Origin: Streptomyces sp. DG2A-72
GTDB lineage: Bacteria; Actinomycetota; Actinomycetes; Streptomycetales; Streptomycetaceae
Direction: 5' to 3'
Length of the DNA: 64,000 nt
Assembly: GCF_030499575.1 (NCBI RefSeq)
Contig: NZ_JASTLC010000001.1
Span: forward strand, 2,690,001-2,754,000
In this document: piece after piece, positions 51,619 through 59,900 of the stretch
Position numbering within the stretch: position 1 is the first letter of the stretch
Layout of the letters: each line of letters starts with the position of its first letter
The notes under the pieces: generated by a model
Told to the model about the DNA's origin: nothing
Seen by the model: the letters and a program-made list of their open reading frames with translations, nothing else
Databases searched by the model: none
Program-made: the position numbers and the translations under genes

Positions 51619-52998
51619 TCAGCAGTTGGACTTACCCGCGTAGATCGCGAGGGCCGTGTTGGCGCCGAGCGTGGCGGTGAACTGCCCACCGGAGTTCACC
51701 GCCACGGTCGTGTTGCTCTGCACATTGCAGTACGTCCCCGCCGGCAGCGACGTCTGATACGTCCGGCTCAGACTGCCGGACTCGTGGTTGATGGCGACGT
51801 AGCCCTTGGCACCCCGCCCGAAGGCGATCGCGTCGGCGCCGTTGTCCCACCAGTTGGTGACGGCCTCACCACGCGTGGCGTTACGGAAGGCGACCATCGA
51901 CTTGATCTCGGGCCAGTTGTGCTGACACTTCCAGCCGTCCTGCCAACAGGCGCCCACCGTACCGCCGTTGGGCGGGCCCGCGTCCGTGTCGGAGAACTCG
52001 TAGCCGGAGTTGATGTCGGGGGCGCCGTAGGGCCAGGCCAGCATGAAGACGTTGGCCAGCGTGTAGTCGGCGCCGTCCTTGTAGTTGAGCGTGCTGCCGT
52101 TGCGCTCGGTGTCGTGGTTGTCGACGAAGACACCGGAGACACCGCCGCTCATGTAACCCCAGTCCTCGCCGTAGTTCTTCAGATAGGCGAGGTTCTCGCT
52201 GTTGAAGACGCGCTTGAGGTCGTAGGCGTAGCGGAACTCCTGGACGTCCCCGTTGCCGGTGTACTCCGTCGGCTGCACGGCCTCCCCGCTGCCGTGGATG
52301 ACCTCCTGCTTCCAGTACACCGACGGGTTGCTCAGCCGGGACTTGATGTTGGCGAGGTCGGCGGCCGGCATGTGCTTGGCCGCGTCGATGCGGAAGCCGT
52401 CGACGCCGAGTGACAGCAGGTCGTTCATGTAGCCGGCGATGGCGCCGCGGACGTAGGACTCCCCGGTGTCCAGGTCGGCGAGGCCCACCAGTTCGCAGTG
52501 CTGGACGTTCCAGCGGTCCTGGTAGTCGGTGATCTGACCGGTGCAGTCGTCGAAGTCGGGGGACGAGTACAGGCCCGGGTAGTTGTACTTCGTGTACACC
52601 GAGCCGCCGGTGCCGGTGCCGCTGCCCGCCGACATGTGGTTGATGACCGTGTCGACGACGACCTTCACACCGGCCGCGTGGCAGGCGCTGACCATGTCCC
52701 GGAAGGCCGCGCGGTCACCGAGCCGACCGGCGATCTTGTAGCTGACGGGCTGGTACGACGTCCACCACTGCGCTCCCTGTATGTGCTCGGCGGGTGGGGA
52801 GACCTGGACGTAGCCGTAGCCGGCGGGGCCGAGGGTGTTGGCGCACTCCTTGGCGACCGAGGCGAAGTTCCACTCGAACATCACCGCGGTGACGTCCTTG
52901 GTGCCGGGCGGGGAGGCCTGCGCGGGAGTCGCGGGGGCTATGAGGGCCGCCGATGTGGCGGCGAGCGCGGTCGCGGTGACGGACCATCTCAATATCAC
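51619..52998 (-). CDS. amlA: Secreted alpha-amylase, GH13, without starch-binding domain
   Basis: A 459-residue exported endo-amylase that cuts internal alpha-1,4 bonds of starch. Signal peptide of about 28 residues (cleavage after AQA), catalytic barrel with Asp205 ([10 protein letters not shown]), Glu232 (WKQEVIHG) and Asp296 (VDNHDTER), and a C-terminal beta domain ending [15 protein letters not shown]. Other streptomycete amylases of this class often run to about 560 residues with a CBM20 starch-binding module; here the chain ends at the C domain. GTG 52998 has AAGGAG about 9 bases upstream. A MalR-type site lies 73-94 bp further up. The gene symbol follows common usage for streptomycete amylases. 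Confidence 0.95.
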
Positions 52999-53070
52999 AG
53001 GCGTCAACTCCTTGCGATGACGGCCAGGCGTCGTTGCCGGGCGCCGGCGTGACCGTACCGCCACGAAAGA

Positions 53071-53092
53071 TCTGCAGCAAGAGAGTTGAAAC
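53071..53092. promoter_or_regulatory. MalR-type operator candidate upstream of the amylase gene
   Basis: Plus strand GCAGCAAGAGAGTTGAAAC (53074-53092). On the coding strand this reads GTTTCAACTCTCTTGCTGC. It shares GTTTCA and CTCTTGCTG with the pulA site. A further half-site GCAAGAGTCC occurs at 53315-53324. Confidence 0.6.
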
Positions 53093-53349
53093 CCATAGTA
53101 AGTTCTTTCATCCGTGGCCTTGACGTGCCCTCCTCAACTCACCATCGCAGCCTGGGGCGACAACCCCGAGCGCGTAACCAGCGGGCCCGCTTCGCCAAAC
53201 TCTGTGGCGTCGCACCAGCCAGGGCGCGACGAGCGGGTGATGGCCGAAGGTCCTTCCCGGCGGAGTGACCTCCTGCTTCTCGGAGTGTGGAAGCGCCCCG
53301 CGGCCGACGCTCTCGCAAGAGTCCGAGGTCAAGTTGACACTCCCCGACG
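53093..53349. other. Intergenic stretch upstream of the amylase gene
   Basis: Part of a 340-bp gap between the amylase operator and the I36-like gene. I find no supported gene. Short open frames here lack ribosome sites and family features. The GCAAGAGTCC match to the MalR-type sites at 53315-53324 is the only notable feature before the terminator. Confidence 0.5.
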
Positions 53350-53387
53350 CCTTGCGGGGATGCCATGAGAGAGGCATCCCCGCAAGG
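53350..53387 (-). terminator. Hairpin after the I36-like gene
   Basis: Perfect 15-bp arms CCTTGCGGGGATGCC (53350-53364) and GGCATCCCCGCAAGG (53373-53387) with an 8-base loop, about 50 bp past the stop of the minus-strand I36-like gene. Confidence 0.9.
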
Positions 53388-53434
53388 GACAGGCCGTGAC
53401 AGGCCCGTCCGCCTCGGCTACGCGGAAGGGGGGA

Positions 53435-53887
53435 TCAGGTCGCCCACCTGTCGCAGGTGCTGGCGCCCACCCAGCGGTGCGAGCTGATGGAGTTGTTGGC
53501 CGAGTAGCCGCTGGTGAAGTAGTTGTTGGTGAGGTCGGAGGCGTAGTGCTCGCTGCGGGCGAGGCAGGTGTGGCCGCCGGTCCAGCCCGTGCCGGTTCCG
53601 TTGAAGAACTGGACCTCTTGGTGGTTGCCCTTGTTGAGGATGGACGACGCCTTGTTGGTGTCGCTGCCCCGGAACTGATGCGAGCTGTCGCCCCAGTTCG
53701 AGTCGTTGGCATCGTCCCTGCCGAGCGGCCCGACGCAGTCGACATAGTCGTAGGCGTACATGTAACCGCTGGCCGCGTTCCTGTAGTTGTCGGCGCAGCT
53801 CTCGACGGCGTGCGCGGAGGAGACGGGGATGACGGTTCCGAGAGCAGCCATGCCCAGGACGGTCAGGGCGGCGGGCAGTTTTCTCAT
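53435..53887 (-). CDS. Small secreted protein, peptidase-inhibitor I36 / beta-gamma-crystallin-like
   Basis: A 150-residue precursor. The signal peptide (MRKLPAALTVLGMAALGTVI, cleavage near AHA, residue 27) leaves a mature protein of about 123 residues with four cysteines. The pattern GSDTNKASSILNKGN, VQFFNGTG, CLARSEHYASDL and NNSISSHRW resembles the repeats of the I36 / beta-gamma-crystallin-like family, in which secreted streptomycete inhibitors of metalloproteases are known. The match is one of pattern, not firm homology. It lies upstream of the amylase gene on the same strand, separated by a terminator. GAGGAG precedes the ATG. Confidence 0.7.
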   Translation of the reverse strand: MRKLPAALTVLGMAALGTVIPVSSAHAVESCADNYRNAASGYMYAYDYVDCVGPLGRDDANDSNWGDSSHQFRGSDTNKASSILNKGNHQEVQFFNGTGTGWTGGHTCLARSEHYASDLTNNYFTSGYSANNSISSHRWVGASTCDRWAT

Positions 53888-53959
53888 GGGTGTAACTCCT
53901 CGATCATCTGATGGGTGGGGCTCCCCGCGGCCATGACGCCACGGAAATCTTCGGCGCAC

Positions 53960-54889
53960 CTAACGGCTTTCGAGGTTCCTGGCCCGGGAAAGGGCGGACA
54001 TCCTCATCTGCCGATAGGTCGCAAATTCTTCGGGGTAATCACGCAGCGTCTTATCTCTGTATTCACCTTCGAGAGAACGCGCGGTCTCCCCGAGGGATGT
54101 TCTGCGGGCACACTCGGCCTCGGCCACAGCCAATTTCACTTCGGCGCTCTGGGCTTGGGATGCATTCATCCCCTCGACCAGGGAGTCCCGTTTCTGACGT
54201 ATCTCGTCCGGACTCCTGAAGGGGTTTTCCGACTCGTTCATGCATCGGGACCATGCCTTGACCGCGGTGACCAGGCGCTCGTCGCGGAGAATCCGCGGAA
54301 CATACAGCGGAGTCAGCCCTGTCACGGTCTTCTTGACCCGGAACCAGGTCGGATAGTCGCCGTAGAGCCGCTCCCGTGCTTCGGCGTAACAGCCCTCGCG
54401 TGGTGTCCGAGTGGCGCCGCCGGCCGGCAGCTCGGCGGATATGACGTCGTCGAAATCGCCGTCGAGCGCGCGGGAGTAGCGGATGCGCTCCTGCTCAGGA
54501 AGTGAGTTGGGGTAGGTGACGCTGGGATGACTGCGGCGTGCCTCCGCGGCCGCGATGTCGAAGGTGCGACCGTAGCCGTACCGGCGAGCCCAGTCGACGT
54601 CGTCCACCACGTACGCCCCAGCCTTGCGTTCCGCGATGCCCGCCACCGGCGCCGGCCAGTAGGGGTGGCCCTGGCGCTCCATGCACTTCTCGACAAGTCT
54701 TTCTTCCGCGCGGTCGACCTCGACCTCTTCCGCGACGGTCAGGTCTCTGACCTGATTTCCCGCCACGCCGACCGCTTCGCCTTTCTGCGGCCGTTCCCTG
54801 TCCTCAGGGTTTCCGCTCTCGGCCGTGCAGCCGACCAGCAGGCAGGCGATAAAAGCAGCGGAAACGAGAACGGCGGATTTTTCCCTCAC
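53960..54889 (-). CDS. Lipoprotein divergent from a sensor-kinase operon, unknown function
   Basis: A 309-residue lipoprotein. The signal VREKSAVLVSAAFIACLL with lipobox LVGC puts the acylated Cys near residue 21. The mature part is helical and charged, with Cys near EKCMERQGHPYW and two further cysteines (EGCYAEA, SRCMNES, AECARR), and aromatic-rich segments (DYPTWFRVKK). No known domain was recognised. It is divergent from three signalling genes with 281 bp between starts, and two inverted repeats lie in that gap. A part in sensing for that system is a reasonable guess. GTG 54889 is used; longer frames lack a ribosome site. Confidence 0.75.
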   Translation of the reverse strand: MREKSAVLVSAAFIACLLVGCTAESGNPEDRERPQKGEAVGVAGNQVRDLTVAEEVEVDRAEERLVEKCMERQGHPYWPAPVAGIAERKAGAYVVDDVDWARRYGYGRTFDIAAAEARRSHPSVTYPNSLPEQERIRYSRALDGDFDDVISAELPAGGATRTPREGCYAEARERLYGDYPTWFRVKKTVTGLTPLYVPRILRDERLVTAVKAWSRCMNESENPFRSPDEIRQKRDSLVEGMNASQAQSAEVKLAVAEAECARRTSLGETARSLEGEYRDKTLRDYPEEFATYRQMRMSALSRARNLESR

Positions 54890-54961
54890 TTGACACGCCC
54901 CCTTGGCGTCTTCTTGTCCACCGGCTCCGCCCCCGTGTTCTCCGATGTTTTCCCCTCGGGC

Positions 54962-55022
54962 GGTCCAGTACGGAAGATTACGTGGCGGACTGGACCAAGA
55001 CATGTCACGCGAACGCGTGACA
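54962..55022. promoter_or_regulatory. Two inverted repeats in the lipoprotein / kinase divergent region
   Basis: GGTCCAGT (54962-54969) pairs with ACTGGACC (54989-54996). TGTCACGCG (55003-55011) and CGCGTGACA (55014-55022) form a 20-bp near-perfect palindrome around AA. Both are perfect in their arms and lie between divergent genes, so they are candidates for operators of the linked response regulator. Confidence 0.55.
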
Positions 55023-55170
55023 ACGCTTCGCACGCGCCGTCTGTCGGCCGCGCTCGCGTTCACGTAAGTTGGGAGCGGGTGTCATCGGCGTACGGGGGAA
55101 ACACTGTGAGGAATGCGGTCGAATCCGCCCCTTTCTTGGCGGAGGCGGGAATTCCTCTAGTGGAGGCGGC

Positions 55171-56319
55171 GTGCTGACGCAGGGACCCGCCCAACTTCAG
55201 CTTCGGCGCAAGTCCGCACGCCTGTCGGCTGTCCTGAGGGCAGCGAGTGCTGTCGGAGCGGCCCTGGTCGCCGTGGTCGGTTTCGCACCGCCCGCACGCT
55301 CCGTCTGGGTGGCCGTCGCGGTCGTCGGACTCCTTCTGTGGAGCGGTCTGTTCATCGTGCTGATGTTCAGGCCGGAACCTCGTTCCTGGCTCTGTGCCGG
55401 TGACACCGCTGTCGTCGTGGTGCTCTGCCTGGCGCACGGCAACCTCGTCCCGGCCGAGGTCCTGGGAGCGAGCGCGGGCAGCGGATGGATCGACATGGTC
55501 GCCGGCAGCGGCATCTTCATCGCCCAGTTCGGTCTACGGCAGCCCCTGGCGATGGCGGCGGCGATCGCCATCGCGGCGGCTTACGCGGTGGGCGCTCCCG
55601 GCATCCGGGACGCCCCCCTGATCATGGTGCTCCAGGGACTGCTCGGCGCCACTGTCGTGTTCCTGCTGCGACACGGAGCGCGCAGGGCGGACCTCGCGCT
55701 GTCCGAGGAGGCGGCCGCGCGCGCGTCGGCGCGGGCCCGGTCCGCCGCCCGCACCGACGAACTGGACCAGCAGCGACTGCTGCACGACACGGTGCTCGCC
55801 ACGCTCACCATCGTGGGCACCGGCAGCATCACCCGTGATTCCGCCGCGCTGACGGAACGGGCCGCGGCCGACCTGGCCGTCATCGCGGACCTGCGGGCGC
55901 ATCCCGGCGTGGCACGCGACGCGGCGCACGAGCCGGCACCGCTGGATGTCGCGCTGCGCACCGTCGTACTGACGCGCCGCGTCGGCCTCCCGTCACTGGA
56001 CATCGAGTTCGACGTGCCGCCGCTGGATCTTCCCCACGAGGTCGTGGAAGCCCTCTCGCAAGCGATCGCCGAGGCCCTGACCAACGTGGCCCAGCACGCG
56101 GACACCCGCGCTGCCGGGGTCACGGCCCGACGTGCCGGGGAGGGCGTCACCGTCGAAGTCTGCGACAGCGGACGCGGGTTCGACCCCGCGGCTGTTCCCT
56201 CCCACCGGCGCGGCCTGCGGGAATCGGTCTACGGCCGGATGCGTGCCGTGGGCGGCAGCGCCCGGGCGGTCTCGTCCCCCGGCGCCGGCACCCGGGTCGT
56301 GCTGAGGTGGGAACCCTGA
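55171..56319 (+). CDS. Membrane sensor histidine kinase (NarL-type, atypical)
   Basis: A 382-residue kinase with four to five membrane helices in the first 170 residues (about 21-40, 45-66, 77-92, 125-143, 150-168). A helical linker leads to His205 in QQRLLHDTVLATLTIV, the probable phospho-acceptor. The ATPase domain shows EALTNVAQHADT (N box), VEVCDSGRGFDP (G1) and a degenerate G2 (RRGLRESVYGRM), ending in GAGTRVVLRW. It is the first of three coupled genes. GTG 55171 is 4-5 bases after GGAGG; the frame is open to 55069. The next gene starts inside its 3' end. Confidence 0.85.
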   Translation: MLTQGPAQLQLRRKSARLSAVLRAASAVGAALVAVVGFAPPARSVWVAVAVVGLLLWSGLFIVLMFRPEPRSWLCAGDTAVVVVLCLAHGNLVPAEVLGASAGSGWIDMVAGSGIFIAQFGLRQPLAMAAAIAIAAAYAVGAPGIRDAPLIMVLQGLLGATVVFLLRHGARRADLALSEEAAARASARARSAARTDELDQQRLLHDTVLATLTIVGTGSITRDSAALTERAAADLAVIADLRAHPGVARDAAHEPAPLDVALRTVVLTRRVGLPSLDIEFDVPPLDLPHEVVEALSQAIAEALTNVAQHADTRAAGVTARRAGEGVTVEVCDSGRGFDPAAVPSHRRGLRESVYGRMRAVGGSARAVSSPGAGTRVVLRWEP

Positions 56320-57437
56320 CCGCCGGCGTCGCCAGGGGAATGGTCGCCACCCGTTTCGCCATGGCCGTCAATATCGGGCTGGTGGCGATCGTCGGCGTCT
56401 GGCACCTGGGTCTGGACACCCTGCTGGTGCTCAGGGGCTGGCCGGTGTACGAGCCGCAGGCCGCCGCCGCGGGCTCCTGGCTGGCCCTCACGGTCATCCA
56501 GACGGTCGGGTCGGTCCTGCTGCTGCGTTCGGCGCTCAGCGGGCCCACCGCGCGGTGGCTCGCGGGGGCGGCGCTGGTCACCGGCGTCGTCGCCACCGCC
56601 ACGTACCCGACGGGCGGGATGATCAGCGACGTGAGCTGGGCGTGGAACACCGTGGGCTGGTTCGGCGTGCTGCTTCTGACGCAGCGTCCGCTGTGGGAGC
56701 TGGTCGCCCTGCTCGGCGCCAACACGGCTGTCACGGTGGCCTTCCTGGCCGCCCACGACGCGCTCGACCATGTCATGGTCGCCCGTCTGCTGGCCGTGAC
56801 GTGCACCACCGCCGGTGTCCAGTTGACCCTCGCGTATCTGGCACGGCAGCTCAACGACGGTGCGAGGGAAGCCACCGAGATCGCTGCCGGCCAGGCCGAG
56901 CGCCTCGCCCGTGCCACCGCCGACGAGACCGTGCACGCCGAGCGCCAGCGTCGTTACGAGTACCTGCGCAGCACAGTGGAACCGCTGCTGCGTGGTCTGG
57001 CAGAACATCAACTGGACCCGGGGGACACCGTCGTACGCCGGCGCGCCGCCGTGGAGGCGGCACGCCTGCGGAGGCTGTTCGTGGAGACGGACGACACCCC
57101 GCACCCGCTCCTGCACGAACTGCGGGCCTGCGCCGATGTCGCCGAGCGGCGTGGCGTACGCGTGGCCCTGCTGGGCTACGGCGACCTGCCCGACCTGCCG
57201 TCATCCGTCCGCCGGGAACTGGCGGAAGGGGCCCTGCTGGTCCTGGCCACCGCCGCCACCCGAGCGCGGGTGACCGTGGTGGCGACGCCCGAGGACGTTG
57301 TGGTGAGCGTGGTGGCCGACGCCCCGCCGCAGACGCTCGTCGAATCGCCGGGCCCTCTCACCGTGTCCGCCCAATACGACCAGGAGGAGGATCAGCTGTG
57401 GTGGGAAACCCGATGGCCGCTACGACCGGCCCCCTGA
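56307..57437 (+). CDS. Degenerate sensor-kinase-like membrane protein (pseudokinase candidate)
   Basis: A 376-residue protein that mirrors the preceding kinase: four to five membrane helices in the first 175 residues, a helical linker (QAERLARATADETVHAERQR), then a C-terminal part with kinase-like order. In place of the phospho-His segment it reads RYEYLRSTVEPLLRGL, with no histidine at the expected position. The ATPase part has no clear N, G1 or G2 box (VRRELAEGALLVLATAATRA, VVVSVVADAPPQ). It is therefore probably not an active kinase but may dimerise with or modulate one. GTG 56307 overlaps the kinase gene by 13 bp and the regulator gene starts inside its end. Confidence 0.72.
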   Translation: MGTLTAGVARGMVATRFAMAVNIGLVAIVGVWHLGLDTLLVLRGWPVYEPQAAAAGSWLALTVIQTVGSVLLLRSALSGPTARWLAGAALVTGVVATATYPTGGMISDVSWAWNTVGWFGVLLLTQRPLWELVALLGANTAVTVAFLAAHDALDHVMVARLLAVTCTTAGVQLTLAYLARQLNDGAREATEIAAGQAERLARATADETVHAERQRRYEYLRSTVEPLLRGLAEHQLDPGDTVVRRRAAVEAARLRRLFVETDDTPHPLLHELRACADVAERRGVRVALLGYGDLPDLPSSVRRELAEGALLVLATAATRARVTVVATPEDVVVSVVADAPPQTLVESPGPLTVSAQYDQEEDQLWWETRWPLRPAP

Positions 57438-58087
57438 CCGTCGCCATCGTCGACGATCACCCTGTCGTCATCGAAGGCATCCAGACCTGGCTGTCCGAGG
57501 AGCCGCGCATCTCGGTGGGGCACACCGGCGAAACCACGGATGTGGAGCCCGGCGTCGCGGATGTCCTCATACTCGATCTGAATCTGCACGGCAGACTCGT
57601 CATCGGCGACATCGCCACGCTGGCCGCCGCGGGCCAACGGGTCATCGCCTTCTCGCAGTTCACCGAGCAGCGGGTGGTGCTCGAATCGCTGGAGGCCGGA
57701 GCATGCGAGTTCGTCGCGAAGAACGAAGGACGGGCCCACCTGGTGAACGCGGTGCTGGCCGCGGCGGGAGACAGACCCTACGTCACGCCGACAGCCGCCG
57801 GAGTCCTGGTAGGTGACCGCGGCGCGAGCAGACCCAAGCTGTCCGCACAGGAACGCACCGCGCTGCTGTGGTGGTTCCAGTCCATGTCGAAGGCTTCGGT
57901 CGCCCGGCGCATGGGTGTGTCGGTTCACACCGTGGACGTGTACATCCGTCGGGCGAGAGTCAAGTACGCGCAGGTCGGCAGGACCGCACCGACAAAGGCA
58001 GACATGCTGGCTCGGGCGATCGAGGACGGCCTCGTGACGCCCGACGACATCACGGGCTACGAGTCGGCGGCGGTCAGCGGGAGTTGA
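57398..58087 (+). CDS. LuxR-type response regulator of the kinase / pseudokinase operon
   Basis: A 229-residue regulator. The receiver (about 13-130) has acid pair Asp19-Asp20, phospho-acceptor Asp60 in VLILDLNLHG and a conserved Lys in FVAKNEG. The C-terminal DNA-binding domain (about 150-215) is a somewhat diverged LuxR type (LSAQERTALLWWFQSMSKAS, RRMGVSVHTVDVYIRRARVK). GTG 57398 lies 7 bases after AGGAGGAGG and overlaps the preceding gene by 40 bp, so the three genes are probably translated together; ATG 57413 is an alternative. A hairpin begins inside its stop codon region. Confidence 0.85.
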   Translation: MVGNPMAATTGPLTVAIVDDHPVVIEGIQTWLSEEPRISVGHTGETTDVEPGVADVLILDLNLHGRLVIGDIATLAAAGQRVIAFSQFTEQRVVLESLEAGACEFVAKNEGRAHLVNAVLAAAGDRPYVTPTAAGVLVGDRGASRPKLSAQERTALLWWFQSMSKASVARRMGVSVHTVDVYIRRARVKYAQVGRTAPTKADMLARAIEDGLVTPDDITGYESAAVSGS

Positions 58088-58114
58088 TGCCGCGACGTGT
58101 ACGGTCGCGGCATC
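58086..58114. terminator. Hairpin overlapping the response regulator stop
   Basis: Perfect 11-bp arms GATGCCGCGAC (58086-58096) and GTCGCGGCATC (58104-58114) with a 7-base loop. It serves the signalling operon and the convergent aglA gene, whose stop is at 58130. Confidence 0.85.
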
Positions 58115-58129
58115 GGGCGGCGATTCCTC

Positions 58130-59794
58130 TCAGGCCGTGGTCCACCACACCGTCGTGTCGGCCGGCACCTTCGCCTCGCCGTCCGCCTCCGTCACCTCAC
58201 CGCTGGCAAGCAGCACGCGACCATGCGCGGGCACCGTCACCGACTCACCGCCGGTGTTGGCCACGCACACGAACTCCCCGCGCCGGAAGGCCAGGACGCC
58301 CTCGGGAGCGCGCAGCCACTCCACCGCGTTGCCCGCGCCCAGGCCGGGCTGCTCGCGGCGGACGGCGAGCGCGGTGCGGTACAGCTCCAGCGTCGAGTCG
58401 GCGTCGCCCGTCTGGGCCTCGATGCTCAACTCGCCCCATCCATCGGGCTGGGGCAGCCAGCTGCCGCCCGTGCCGAAGCCGTACGACGGTCCCGTGCGCG
58501 TCCACGGGATCGGCACCCGGCACCCGTCGCGGAAGCCGTCCTGGCCGGCGCCCCGGAAGTACGCCGGGTCCTGGCGGACCTCGTCCGGCAGGTCGACGAC
58601 GTCCAGAAGGCCCAGCTCCTCGCCCTGGTAGACGTATGCCGAGCCGGGCAGCGCCAGCATCAGCAGGGTGGCGGCGCGGGCGCGGCGCAGGCCCAGTTCG
58701 CGGTCGCCCGCCGAGCGGATCTGCGTGCCGAGACCCGGGGGGTTGGCGAAGCGGGTCGCATGGCGGGTGACGTCGTGGTTGGACAGCACCCAGGTGGCGG
58801 GGGCGCCCACCGGGCGCATCGCCTCCAGGGTGCGGTCGATGACCGTGCGCAGTTCCTCGGCGTCCCAACTCGTGCTGAGATACTGGAAATTGAAGGCCTG
58901 GTGCAGCTCGTCCGGGCGGACGTAGTTGGCGGTGCGCTCGACGGTCGGCGTCCAGGCTTCGGCGACGAAGATCCTCTCCCCCGCGTACTCGTCCAGGATC
59001 GTCCGCCACTGGCGGTAGATCACATGCACGCCGTCCTGGTCGAAGAACGGCATGACATCGTTGCCCAGCAGCTTGAGTTGGTCATGAGCACCCAGGTCCG
59101 GCAGTCCGTCCGCCTTCACCAGTCCGTGCGCCACGTCGATACGGAAGCCGTCGACGCCCATGTCCAGCCAGAACCGCAGGATCGAGCGGAACTCGTCCCC
59201 GACGGCCGGGTGCTCCCAGTTGAAGTCGGGCTGCTCCGGCGCGAAGAGATGCAGATACCACTCGCCGTCGGGCACCCTCGTCCACGCGGGCCCACCGAAG
59301 ATCGACTCCCAGTCGTTGGGCGGGAGTTCCCCGTTCTCCCCCTTGCCCGGCCGGAAGTGGTACCGGTCCCGGAGCGGCGAACCCGCCCCCTCCGCGACCG
59401 CCCGCTTGAACCACTCGTGCTGGTCGGACGAGTGATTGGGCACCAGGTCCACGATGATCCTCAGACCCAGCTCATGCGCGTCGCGGATCAGCGCATCGGC
59501 ATCGAGCAGATTGCCGAACATCGGGTCCACGGCCCGGTAATCGGCGACGTCGTATCCGGCGTCGGCCTGCGGGGAAGCATAGAAGGGGCTCAACCACACG
59601 GCATCGATACCGAGGTCCCGCAGATACGGCAGCCGGGACCGTACGCCTTCCAGATCCCCCATGCCGTCACCGTTGCTGTCGGCGAAGCTGCGCGGATAGA
59701 CCTGGTAGATCACCGCATCCCGCCACCAGTCGCGGCGCTGGGCGACGGTGGCGAGAGCGGAGTTGACGGCCGGGTCGGCGGAGTGCTGGCTCAT
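58130..59794 (-). CDS. aglA: Intracellular alpha-glucosidase, GH13 (maltodextrin utilisation)
   Basis: A 554-residue cytoplasmic GH13 exo-glucosidase with no signal peptide. It releases glucose from imported maltose and maltodextrins. Active-site residues are Asp220 ([12 protein letters not shown]), Glu279 (FVAEAW) and Asp341 (LSNHDVTRH); the family start RDWWRDAVIYQVYPRSF at 21-37 is complete. ATG 59794 is favoured because AAGGA lies 4 bases upstream; ATG 59821 is possible. It is the last gene of the mal cluster but is separated from malG by 179 bp holding a copy of the dispersed repeat, so it may have its own promoter or be read through. Confidence 0.95.
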   Translation of the reverse strand: MSQHSADPAVNSALATVAQRRDWWRDAVIYQVYPRSFADSNGDGMGDLEGVRSRLPYLRDLGIDAVWLSPFYASPQADAGYDVADYRAVDPMFGNLLDADALIRDAHELGLRIIVDLVPNHSSDQHEWFKRAVAEGAGSPLRDRYHFRPGKGENGELPPNDWESIFGGPAWTRVPDGEWYLHLFAPEQPDFNWEHPAVGDEFRSILRFWLDMGVDGFRIDVAHGLVKADGLPDLGAHDQLKLLGNDVMPFFDQDGVHVIYRQWRTILDEYAGERIFVAEAWTPTVERTANYVRPDELHQAFNFQYLSTSWDAEELRTVIDRTLEAMRPVGAPATWVLSNHDVTRHATRFANPPGLGTQIRSAGDRELGLRRARAATLLMLALPGSAYVYQGEELGLLDVVDLPDEVRQDPAYFRGAGQDGFRDGCRVPIPWTRTGPSYGFGTGGSWLPQPDGWGELSIEAQTGDADSTLELYRTALAVRREQPGLGAGNAVEWLRAPEGVLAFRRGEFVCVANTGGESVTVPAHGRVLLASGEVTEADGEAKVPADTTVWWTTA

Positions 59795-59900
59795 GGCGTC
59801 CTTGATGAATAACGGGGTCATCGGGCGTGTAAGACGAGACGGCCGCGGTGGAGCGGGGTCGGATGACCACCGCGACCGCCTCGAGTTTTCAGGAAGGGAA

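Follow-up and report, generated by a model that had tools for sequence, protein, structure and literature searches.

A histidine kinase, its catalytically degenerate sister and a response regulator form a conserved actinomycete triad beside genes for exported proteins

Genes and features of the locus

The window analyzed here is a 64,000-nucleotide stretch from the soil bacterium Streptomyces sp. DG2A-72 (G000:C1:2690001-2754000; genome size 10.6 Mb), and the system in question is a three-gene unit on its + strand encoding a membrane sensor histidine kinase (HK), a kinase-like protein that lacks the catalytic His, Asn and Gly (HK2), and a response regulator (RR). A lipoprotein gene is divergent from this triad (Table 1). 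Throughout, L numbers denote loci, G numbers genomes, C1 a contig, and WIN the window locus. The four open reading frames (ORFs), with their strands and overlaps, are all as described in the original prediction, which had been made from the letters alone: HK and HK2 overlap by 13 bp (HK2 GTG at 56307, HK stop at 56319), and HK2 and RR by 40 bp (RR GTG at 57398, HK2 stop at 57437), or by 25 bp if RR starts at ATG 57413. The start of HK is better placed at GTG 55171 than at TTG 55069, given a GGAGG four bases upstream and a reading that is conserved from the GTG onwards.

Table 1. Features of the locus, in window positions, and operator sites of genome G356, in positions of that genome
Feature	Position	Strand	Remarks
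Small secreted protein, second proposed output	53435..53887	-	150 aa (amino acids); downstream of lipoprotein
Lipoprotein, proposed output	53960..54889	-	309 aa from GTG; lipobox LVGC
TAATCT, -10-like hexamer towards lipoprotein	54975..54980	-	22 nt from operator
Palindromic candidate operator	55003..55022		TGTCACGCG-AA-CGCGTGACA
HK, active-looking membrane sensor kinase	55171..56319	+	382 aa from GTG 55171 (416 aa from TTG 55069)
HK phospho-acceptor His codon	55783-55785	+	aligned HKs
HK N-box Asn codon	56083-56085	+	aligned HKs
HK G1 Asp codon	56164-56166	+	aligned HKs
HK2, predicted pseudokinase	56307..57437	+	376 aa; full-length HK homologue without phospho-His, N-box Asn and G-box Gly
RR, NarL/LuxR-type response regulator	57398..58087	+	229 aa (or from ATG 57413)
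RR phospho-acceptor D60 codon	57575-57577	+	D60 in 73/73 RRs
Fused-type sites of G356	C1: 1152358, 4283273, 4822675, 4824064		before exported or membrane proteins

An active-looking kinase and its degenerate sister

HK matches HATPase_c in Pfam (E 7.7e-9; 36.4 bits against a cut-off of 26.4), and no HisKA-type model was matched in the same search. The phospho-acceptor His is present in 68 of the 72 aligned HKs, the other rows being three gaps and one frameshifted sequence, and the N-box Asn, the G1 Asp and Gly are each present in 72/72. With a HATPase_c domain bearing N and G1 boxes and a phospho-His, HK has the apparent makeup of a catalytic histidine kinase, as its motifs had first led it to be read. 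The class motif DxxxQ places a Gln (or His) at His+5, the phosphatase position. HK departs from this HisKA_3 pattern: Gln occurs in 0/69 HKs with a letter at that column (A 49, S 8, T 6, H 5, P 1, with 3 gaps among the 72), and the window HK has A (55783-55800); the five HKs with His there would fit DxxxH. The missing Gln suggests that RR may be dephosphorylated in another way, which leaves room for an action of HK2 on RR.

Profile searches of HK2 returned no Pfam kinase match, the single match at E<=10 being a sub-threshold one to DUF6589 (E 0.17); a HATPase or HisKA match at E<=0.01 was likewise found in 0/38 members of the HK2 family, so that the normal HisKA/HATPase match that would contradict a degenerate kinase did not appear. 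Residue tallies agree with the original description of the second protein as one with the membrane layout of the first and no His or ATP boxes: R221 (codon 56967-56969) stands at the phospho-His position, the N-box Asn and G-box Gly are absent, and a profile alignment of HK2 with HK extends over 317 columns, including the membrane part, with a probability of 97.8. Judged from its sequence, HK2 has none of the residues that autophosphorylation and the usual mode of ATP binding require. Its predicted model (pLDDT 90.1) matches the CA domain of DosS/DesK and the DHp plus CA domains of DesK, consistent with an HPK7/DesK-type fold of DHp helices and CA domain. R255 and R256 are present in 76/76 HK2s, and dN/dS values between the window and 12 close loci are 0.24-0.70 for HK2 and 0.24-0.57 for HK. 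This HK-like constraint, together with invariant residues of its own, argues that HK2 is not decaying.

The third protein, RR, matches Response_reg and GerE in Pfam above gathering score, and D60 and K108 are present in 73/73 RRs; a receiver with these residues and a GerE-type helix-turn-helix identify it as a NarL/LuxR response regulator, in keeping with the LuxR-type regulator first proposed.

The triad as a conserved unit

Searches with HK2 identified 186 relatives at E<=1e-3, 120 of which are among the matches listed, and a match at this threshold occurs in 46/392 Streptomyces genomes. A scan of named genomes recovered at least 44 loci, in Streptomyces, Actinomadura, Micromonospora, Rhizocola, Asanoa, Catenuloplanes, Virgisporangium, Actinokineospora, Nonomuraea, Planobispora, Herbidospora, Acrocarpospora, and Gordonia, as well as unclassified bins; among the matches listed, the nearest named relative is in Streptomyces sp. 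GESEQ-4 (96%). Triads were called at >=150 bits for HK2, >=60 bits for HK and >=90 bits for RR in 78 non-duplicate actinomycete loci. HK2 was detected in 76 of these, accompanied by HK in 72 and by RR in 73. Missing partners are partly explained by contig ends (L089 and L107 for HK; L051 and L057 for RR); L112 and L094 each lack one partner for which a contig end is not the cause, and the HK of L068 was detected by BLAST only.

HK directly adjoins HK2 in 57/61 unfused pairs, and in 11 further loci the two form one open frame of 777-814 aa by gene caller. These fused loci belong to one Streptomyces clade, on one side of one branch in the HK2 tree (support 100/98); no fusion of HK or HK2 to RR was seen in the loci examined. 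Over 64 loci, distances correlate at 0.98 for HK-HK2, 0.93 for HK-RR and 0.94 for HK2-RR. Adjacency, the fusion clade, the 0.98 correlation, and conservation across genera together argue for, and do not prove, a physical partnership of HK and HK2; the data fit such a pair. On the sequence record, HK, HK2 and RR make up an old family of triads, and it is the triad that is conserved as a unit. The original prediction had proposed a four-part signaling unit that also includes the lipoprotein. The part that holds is the conservation of an active-looking and a degenerate kinase with one RR; the lipoprotein does not belong to the unit in the same way, being found in 4/15 close loci. The triad is widespread, and the four-gene order is not unique to this genome: three more loci have exactly this order (L037, L072, L075).

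Separately, HK motifs and HK2 of L068 (5837-9490) lie within one open frame of 1218 aa, which may be another fusion that arose independently. Decayed copies also occur: L132 (5463-5729; near 8586500 on C1 of the window's own genome) holds the remnant of a second HK gene, with an operator and a gene for a secreted lipase-like protein beside it, and appears to be a decayed second triad, while in L069 (8444-9357; G172) HK and HK2 have been deleted to an 88-aa remnant ahead of an intact RR.

Interchangeable exported proteins behind a common candidate operator

A 20-bp palindrome of 9-WW-9 layout, TGTCACGCGAACGCGTGACA at 55003-55022, lies between HK and the divergent gene. It is present in 15/15 close loci despite their differing divergent genes, with 14-16 of 16 core positions kept. 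A TAATCT-like (TA...T) hexamer follows towards the exported gene, 22 nt on in 16/19 close-type sites and 23 nt on in the other 3/19; this spacing puts the operator centre near -44, which would be an activator position. Two further sites in the window's own genome (<=1 mismatch) each lie 22 nt before a TAATCT, ahead of secreted lipase-like genes; one of the two has the HK remnant of L132 next to it. At the same threshold the close palindrome occurs in 12/392 Streptomyces genomes: 10 with a close triad, G172 with its intact RR and deleted HK/HK2, and G037, judged to be chance. The close operator is thus found in 11/11 genomes with a close triad or RR remnant versus 1/381 others. In G172 the site stands before a lipase-like gene on another contig than the RR. 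Among relatives of the lipase-like proteins with >=45% identity, a close-type operator or the fused-type operator described below lies upstream in 12/12 places; neither was found upstream in 8 examined relatives with <=42% identity.

The lipoprotein was originally described as of unknown family, and no Pfam or NCBIfam family was found for it; a family search collected 70 proteins, its own sequence included. Relatives occupy the divergent position in 4/15 close loci (WIN, L037, L072, L075), whereas in the other 11/15 the palindrome is the same and the gene behind it encodes a different exported protein. Further relatives lie behind the fused-clade operator in L197 (62.5% identity) and L207 (48.6%); for one such relative, the genome (G121) has no detected triad. 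A fixed, CseA-like linkage of lipoprotein and two-component system is therefore not what the 4/15 close loci present; swapped in most close loci and with relatives behind a related operator, the lipoprotein looks like a regulated output and not a sensor. The small secreted protein downstream, for which inspection and a simple rule both indicate a signal peptide and no Pfam family was found, accompanies the lipoprotein in L037 and L072.

Elsewhere among close loci the divergent gene encodes a lipase-like protein, with matches to PGAP1/DUF676/Lipase_2, or a secreted protein for which no Pfam family was found; in L079 it encodes an NlpC/P60 protein. More distant Streptomyces have in this place a phospholipase A2 (L049), peptidoglycan (PG)-binding proteins (L053, L065), a YkuD protein (L050), an S37 peptidase (L083), or a DUF4333 lipoprotein (L059). 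The upstream gene is divergent in 37 of 43 Streptomyces loci where one was called, and divergent and exported in 27 by the simple signal-peptide rule, which 143/751 other genes of the loci also pass. It is divergent in 16 of 26 loci outside Streptomyces. The DNA evidence as a whole suggests a switch that activates genes for exported proteins, which can replace one another, and the lipoprotein looks like a product rather than a sensor. The divergent gene outside Streptomyces often encodes a small protein of 71-100 aa (L091, L093, L103, L099, L108, L110, L115); these proteins are alike within Herbidospora/Acrocarpospora and within Actinokineospora.

The fused clade has an operator of its own, TGTGNCGGTYGTTYGCCCCACA, which occurs at <=1 mismatch in 15/392 Streptomyces genomes: 11/12 fused-triad genomes of that clade (G366 being counted from an 829-aa open frame) and 4 of the other 380. 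In 30 of 34 listed sites examined, a TA...T hexamer lies exactly 19 nt on at 29, and a permissive scan places an exported ORF within 420 bp at 21, although the one in L182 probably encodes a membrane protein instead. Targets include lipase-like and PG-binding-like proteins, L059-type lipoproteins, and the two window-lipoprotein relatives noted above, and target families are common to both triad clades though the operators differ. RR recognition helices vary along with operator type. In two genomes with fused triads, G143 and G148 (L056, L063, L191, L203), the operator stands before a regulator-like gene beside what by eye resembles a nonribosomal-peptide cluster, not before an exported protein.

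Operators of several clades have in common the layout TGN5CG-WW-CGN5CA, exact in 24/70 upstream regions versus 7/1344 control windows, and in 4/31 upstream regions that were not used to derive it; these counts are not independent, because the loci are related.

Proposed mechanism and alternatives

The reading we consider probable is that of an obligate kinase/pseudokinase cassette, driving an RR that activates genes for swappable exported proteins. HK and HK2 would derive from a common membrane kinase of which HK kept catalysis; HK2 would have lost the phospho-acceptor His and ATP site while keeping the membrane part, the DHp helices, the CA fold, and invariant residues of its own. Most likely the two would work as an obligate heteromeric receptor, with sensing or gating as the part of HK2; with catalytic residues in HK alone and a membrane part common to both, a mixed receptor is the simplest model, and the fusion clade would represent its covalent form. 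Only HK would autophosphorylate and hand phosphate to RR, whose phosphorylated dimer would sit on the 9-WW-9 palindrome at ~-44 and activate the divergent genes for exported proteins, here those of the lipoprotein and the small secreted protein, as well as the two unlinked secreted lipase-like genes of the same genome. In this scheme we infer the heterodimer, the gating, the phosphotransfer, the binding of RR, and activation as the direction of regulation. We are evenly divided over a broader view: that this is a widespread actinomycete cassette in which a dead kinase serves as obligate co-receptor of an active one, with which it is fused in one clade, and clade-specific 9-WW-9 operators connect the pair to interchangeable exported effectors. 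Around a triad that stays constant, units of operator plus effector would be exchanged, copied and scattered, and could outlive it.

Several observations weigh against the cassette reading. A His occupies the aligned column in 7/76 HK2s, the G1 Asp is retained in 61/76, and RR is adjacent but on the opposite strand in five loci. The upstream gene outside Streptomyces is both divergent and exported by rule in only 5/26 loci. The fused triad of G192 (L045) has no fused-type operator at <=1 mismatch, and fused triads L056 and L063 have no operator element directly upstream of HK; 9/30 fused-type sites are without an exported ORF by the scan, which 317/868 control genes also pass, so that more weight falls on the target families than on their number. 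In 32/70 loci the upstream region showed no general motif, even with one mismatch and six paired arm positions. Finally, fused-type operators occur without detected HK2 in G326, G356, G121, and G389, and G356 has four such sites while its best RR relative reaches 34%, which is not close. The sites could be used by another protein, or a triad once present was lost; the G356 sites may be an orphan regulon or belong to another regulator.

The strongest competitor, though we think it unlikely, has HK2 as an inactive membrane-bound decoy that works on RR, by sequestering it or by assisting its dephosphorylation, and forms no mixed dimers. The DHp and CA fold, on which response regulators dock, is retained in HK2, and since none of the 69 HKs that can be read at His+5 has a Gln, another protein might dephosphorylate RR. 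Yet HK2s vary at the phospho-site position, HK2 distances follow those of HK (0.98) more than those of RR (0.94), and the fusions seen in the examined loci join HK2 to HK and never to RR.

It is improbable, in our estimate, that the lipoprotein is the input, a CseA-like accessory sensor that touches HK or HK2 and whose divergent position reflects joint function. Passages of PMC9739842 assign lipoproteins (CseA, AfsQ3) an accessory role in Streptomyces two-component systems, and four loci have the same order; against this stand the 11/15 close loci with another exported protein behind the same operator and the relative in G121, where a fused-type operator precedes it and HK2 was undetected. Similarly doubtful is an unrelated regulator of exported proteins acting at the palindrome, with the triad merely beside such genes. 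The four genomes with fused-type operators and no detected triad, and G356 with no close RR, speak for this proposal. It is at odds with the restriction of the close operator to close-triad or RR-remnant genomes (11/11 vs 1/381), with operators that differ by triad clade over common target families, with recognition helices that differ with operator type, and with a 9-WW-9 layout that fits a dimer of a LuxR-type RR. As for HK2 being a relic on its way out, retained only through its overlap with neighbors, we give this almost no credence: catalytic motifs are indeed lost and triads do decay (the decayed HK of L132 in the same genome; the deleted HK/HK2 of L069), but open frames over several orders, HK-like constraint, own invariant residues and the fusion clade all contradict it.

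Comparison with characterized systems

The passages cited here agree with the earlier statement that no characterized streptomycete system has exactly this gene order. AbrC1/AbrC2/AbrC3 of Streptomyces coelicolor (SCO4598/97/96) resembles the triad in combining, as described in passages of PMC9739842 and PMC4428217, two HK genes and one NarL-type RR gene in one locus. Both AbrC1 and AbrC2 autophosphorylate, as tested with His-to-Ala variants (PMC4428217, in part), whereas HK2 has neither His nor ATP site; with these motifs absent, and compared by description, the triad does not present the two catalytically competent kinases of an AbrC-type system. MacS (of MacS/MacR, SCO2121/20) is the best NCBIfam model for HK at 73.9 bits, a score far below its equivalog cut-off of 300 bits, which leaves HK outside that family. 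Passages of PMC9739842 list MacRS as one kinase and one RR and include membrane proteins and lipoproteins among the targets of MacR. With respect to DesK/DosS-type (HPK7) kinases, HK2 differs in having no catalytic His, Asn or Gly, and HK in having no Gln at His+5.

RetS is an HK-fold pseudokinase with a signaling role and no catalysis of its own. The same likeness, an HK fold that signals without its own catalysis, extends to DivL and a laboratory-evolved ChrS in the parts cited of PMC9491836 and PMC4211667. HK2 differs from DivL, RetS and ChrS as the dedicated neighbor of one HK and one RR across many genera, with natural fusions. Rv0600c and Rv0601c of Mycobacterium tuberculosis are a split kinase, one protein bearing the His and the other the ATP site. 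Together with TcrA they provide two HK proteins and one RR, as does the triad (PMC9274095, in part); in the triad, HK holds both the His and the ATP site and HK2 neither. The DosR box TTSGGGACTWWAGTCCCSAA, a 20-bp palindrome for a LuxR-family RR, has the same 9-WW-9 layout as the window operator (PMC2275270, in part). The window operator has another half-site sequence, and its predicted targets are exported proteins.

In the cited passages, HK pseudokinases are single cases, whereas the triad would be a natural family of some age, in which the dead kinase has a constant active partner and a single regulator, natural fusions occur, and operators and targets can be predicted. The role of a dead histidine kinase thereby becomes testable with three genes and one promoter, and unnamed secreted proteins of Streptomyces (lipase-like, peptidoglycan-binding, and unknown exported proteins) gain a candidate regulator.

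Genomic setting

In the window (51619-59821), the triad and its cargo (~5 kb) lie between alpha-amylase-like (amy) and aglA-like genes, as they do in L072 and L032. Of 19 loci examined in triad-less relatives, six have aglA followed directly by amy (L214, L215, L217-L220), an empty site; amy is further from aglA in two, and the rest have no amy inside the 1.5-kb flank. Presence between amy and aglA in three loci, with the genes side by side in triad-less relatives, indicates that the unit was inserted there. L032 has the triad at this same amylase/alpha-glucosidase place, but with other secreted genes beside it.

In G266, HK2, operator and lipase-like gene occur with equal scores near both chromosome ends (C1 ~42-46 kb and 11.495-11.498 Mb), as expected of terminal inverted repeats; the HK of the left copy reads in two frames. 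In L042 and L043, the triad stands beside an ABC transporter and lasso-peptide-maturation-like genes (PqqD-like and B2-like, named by eye).

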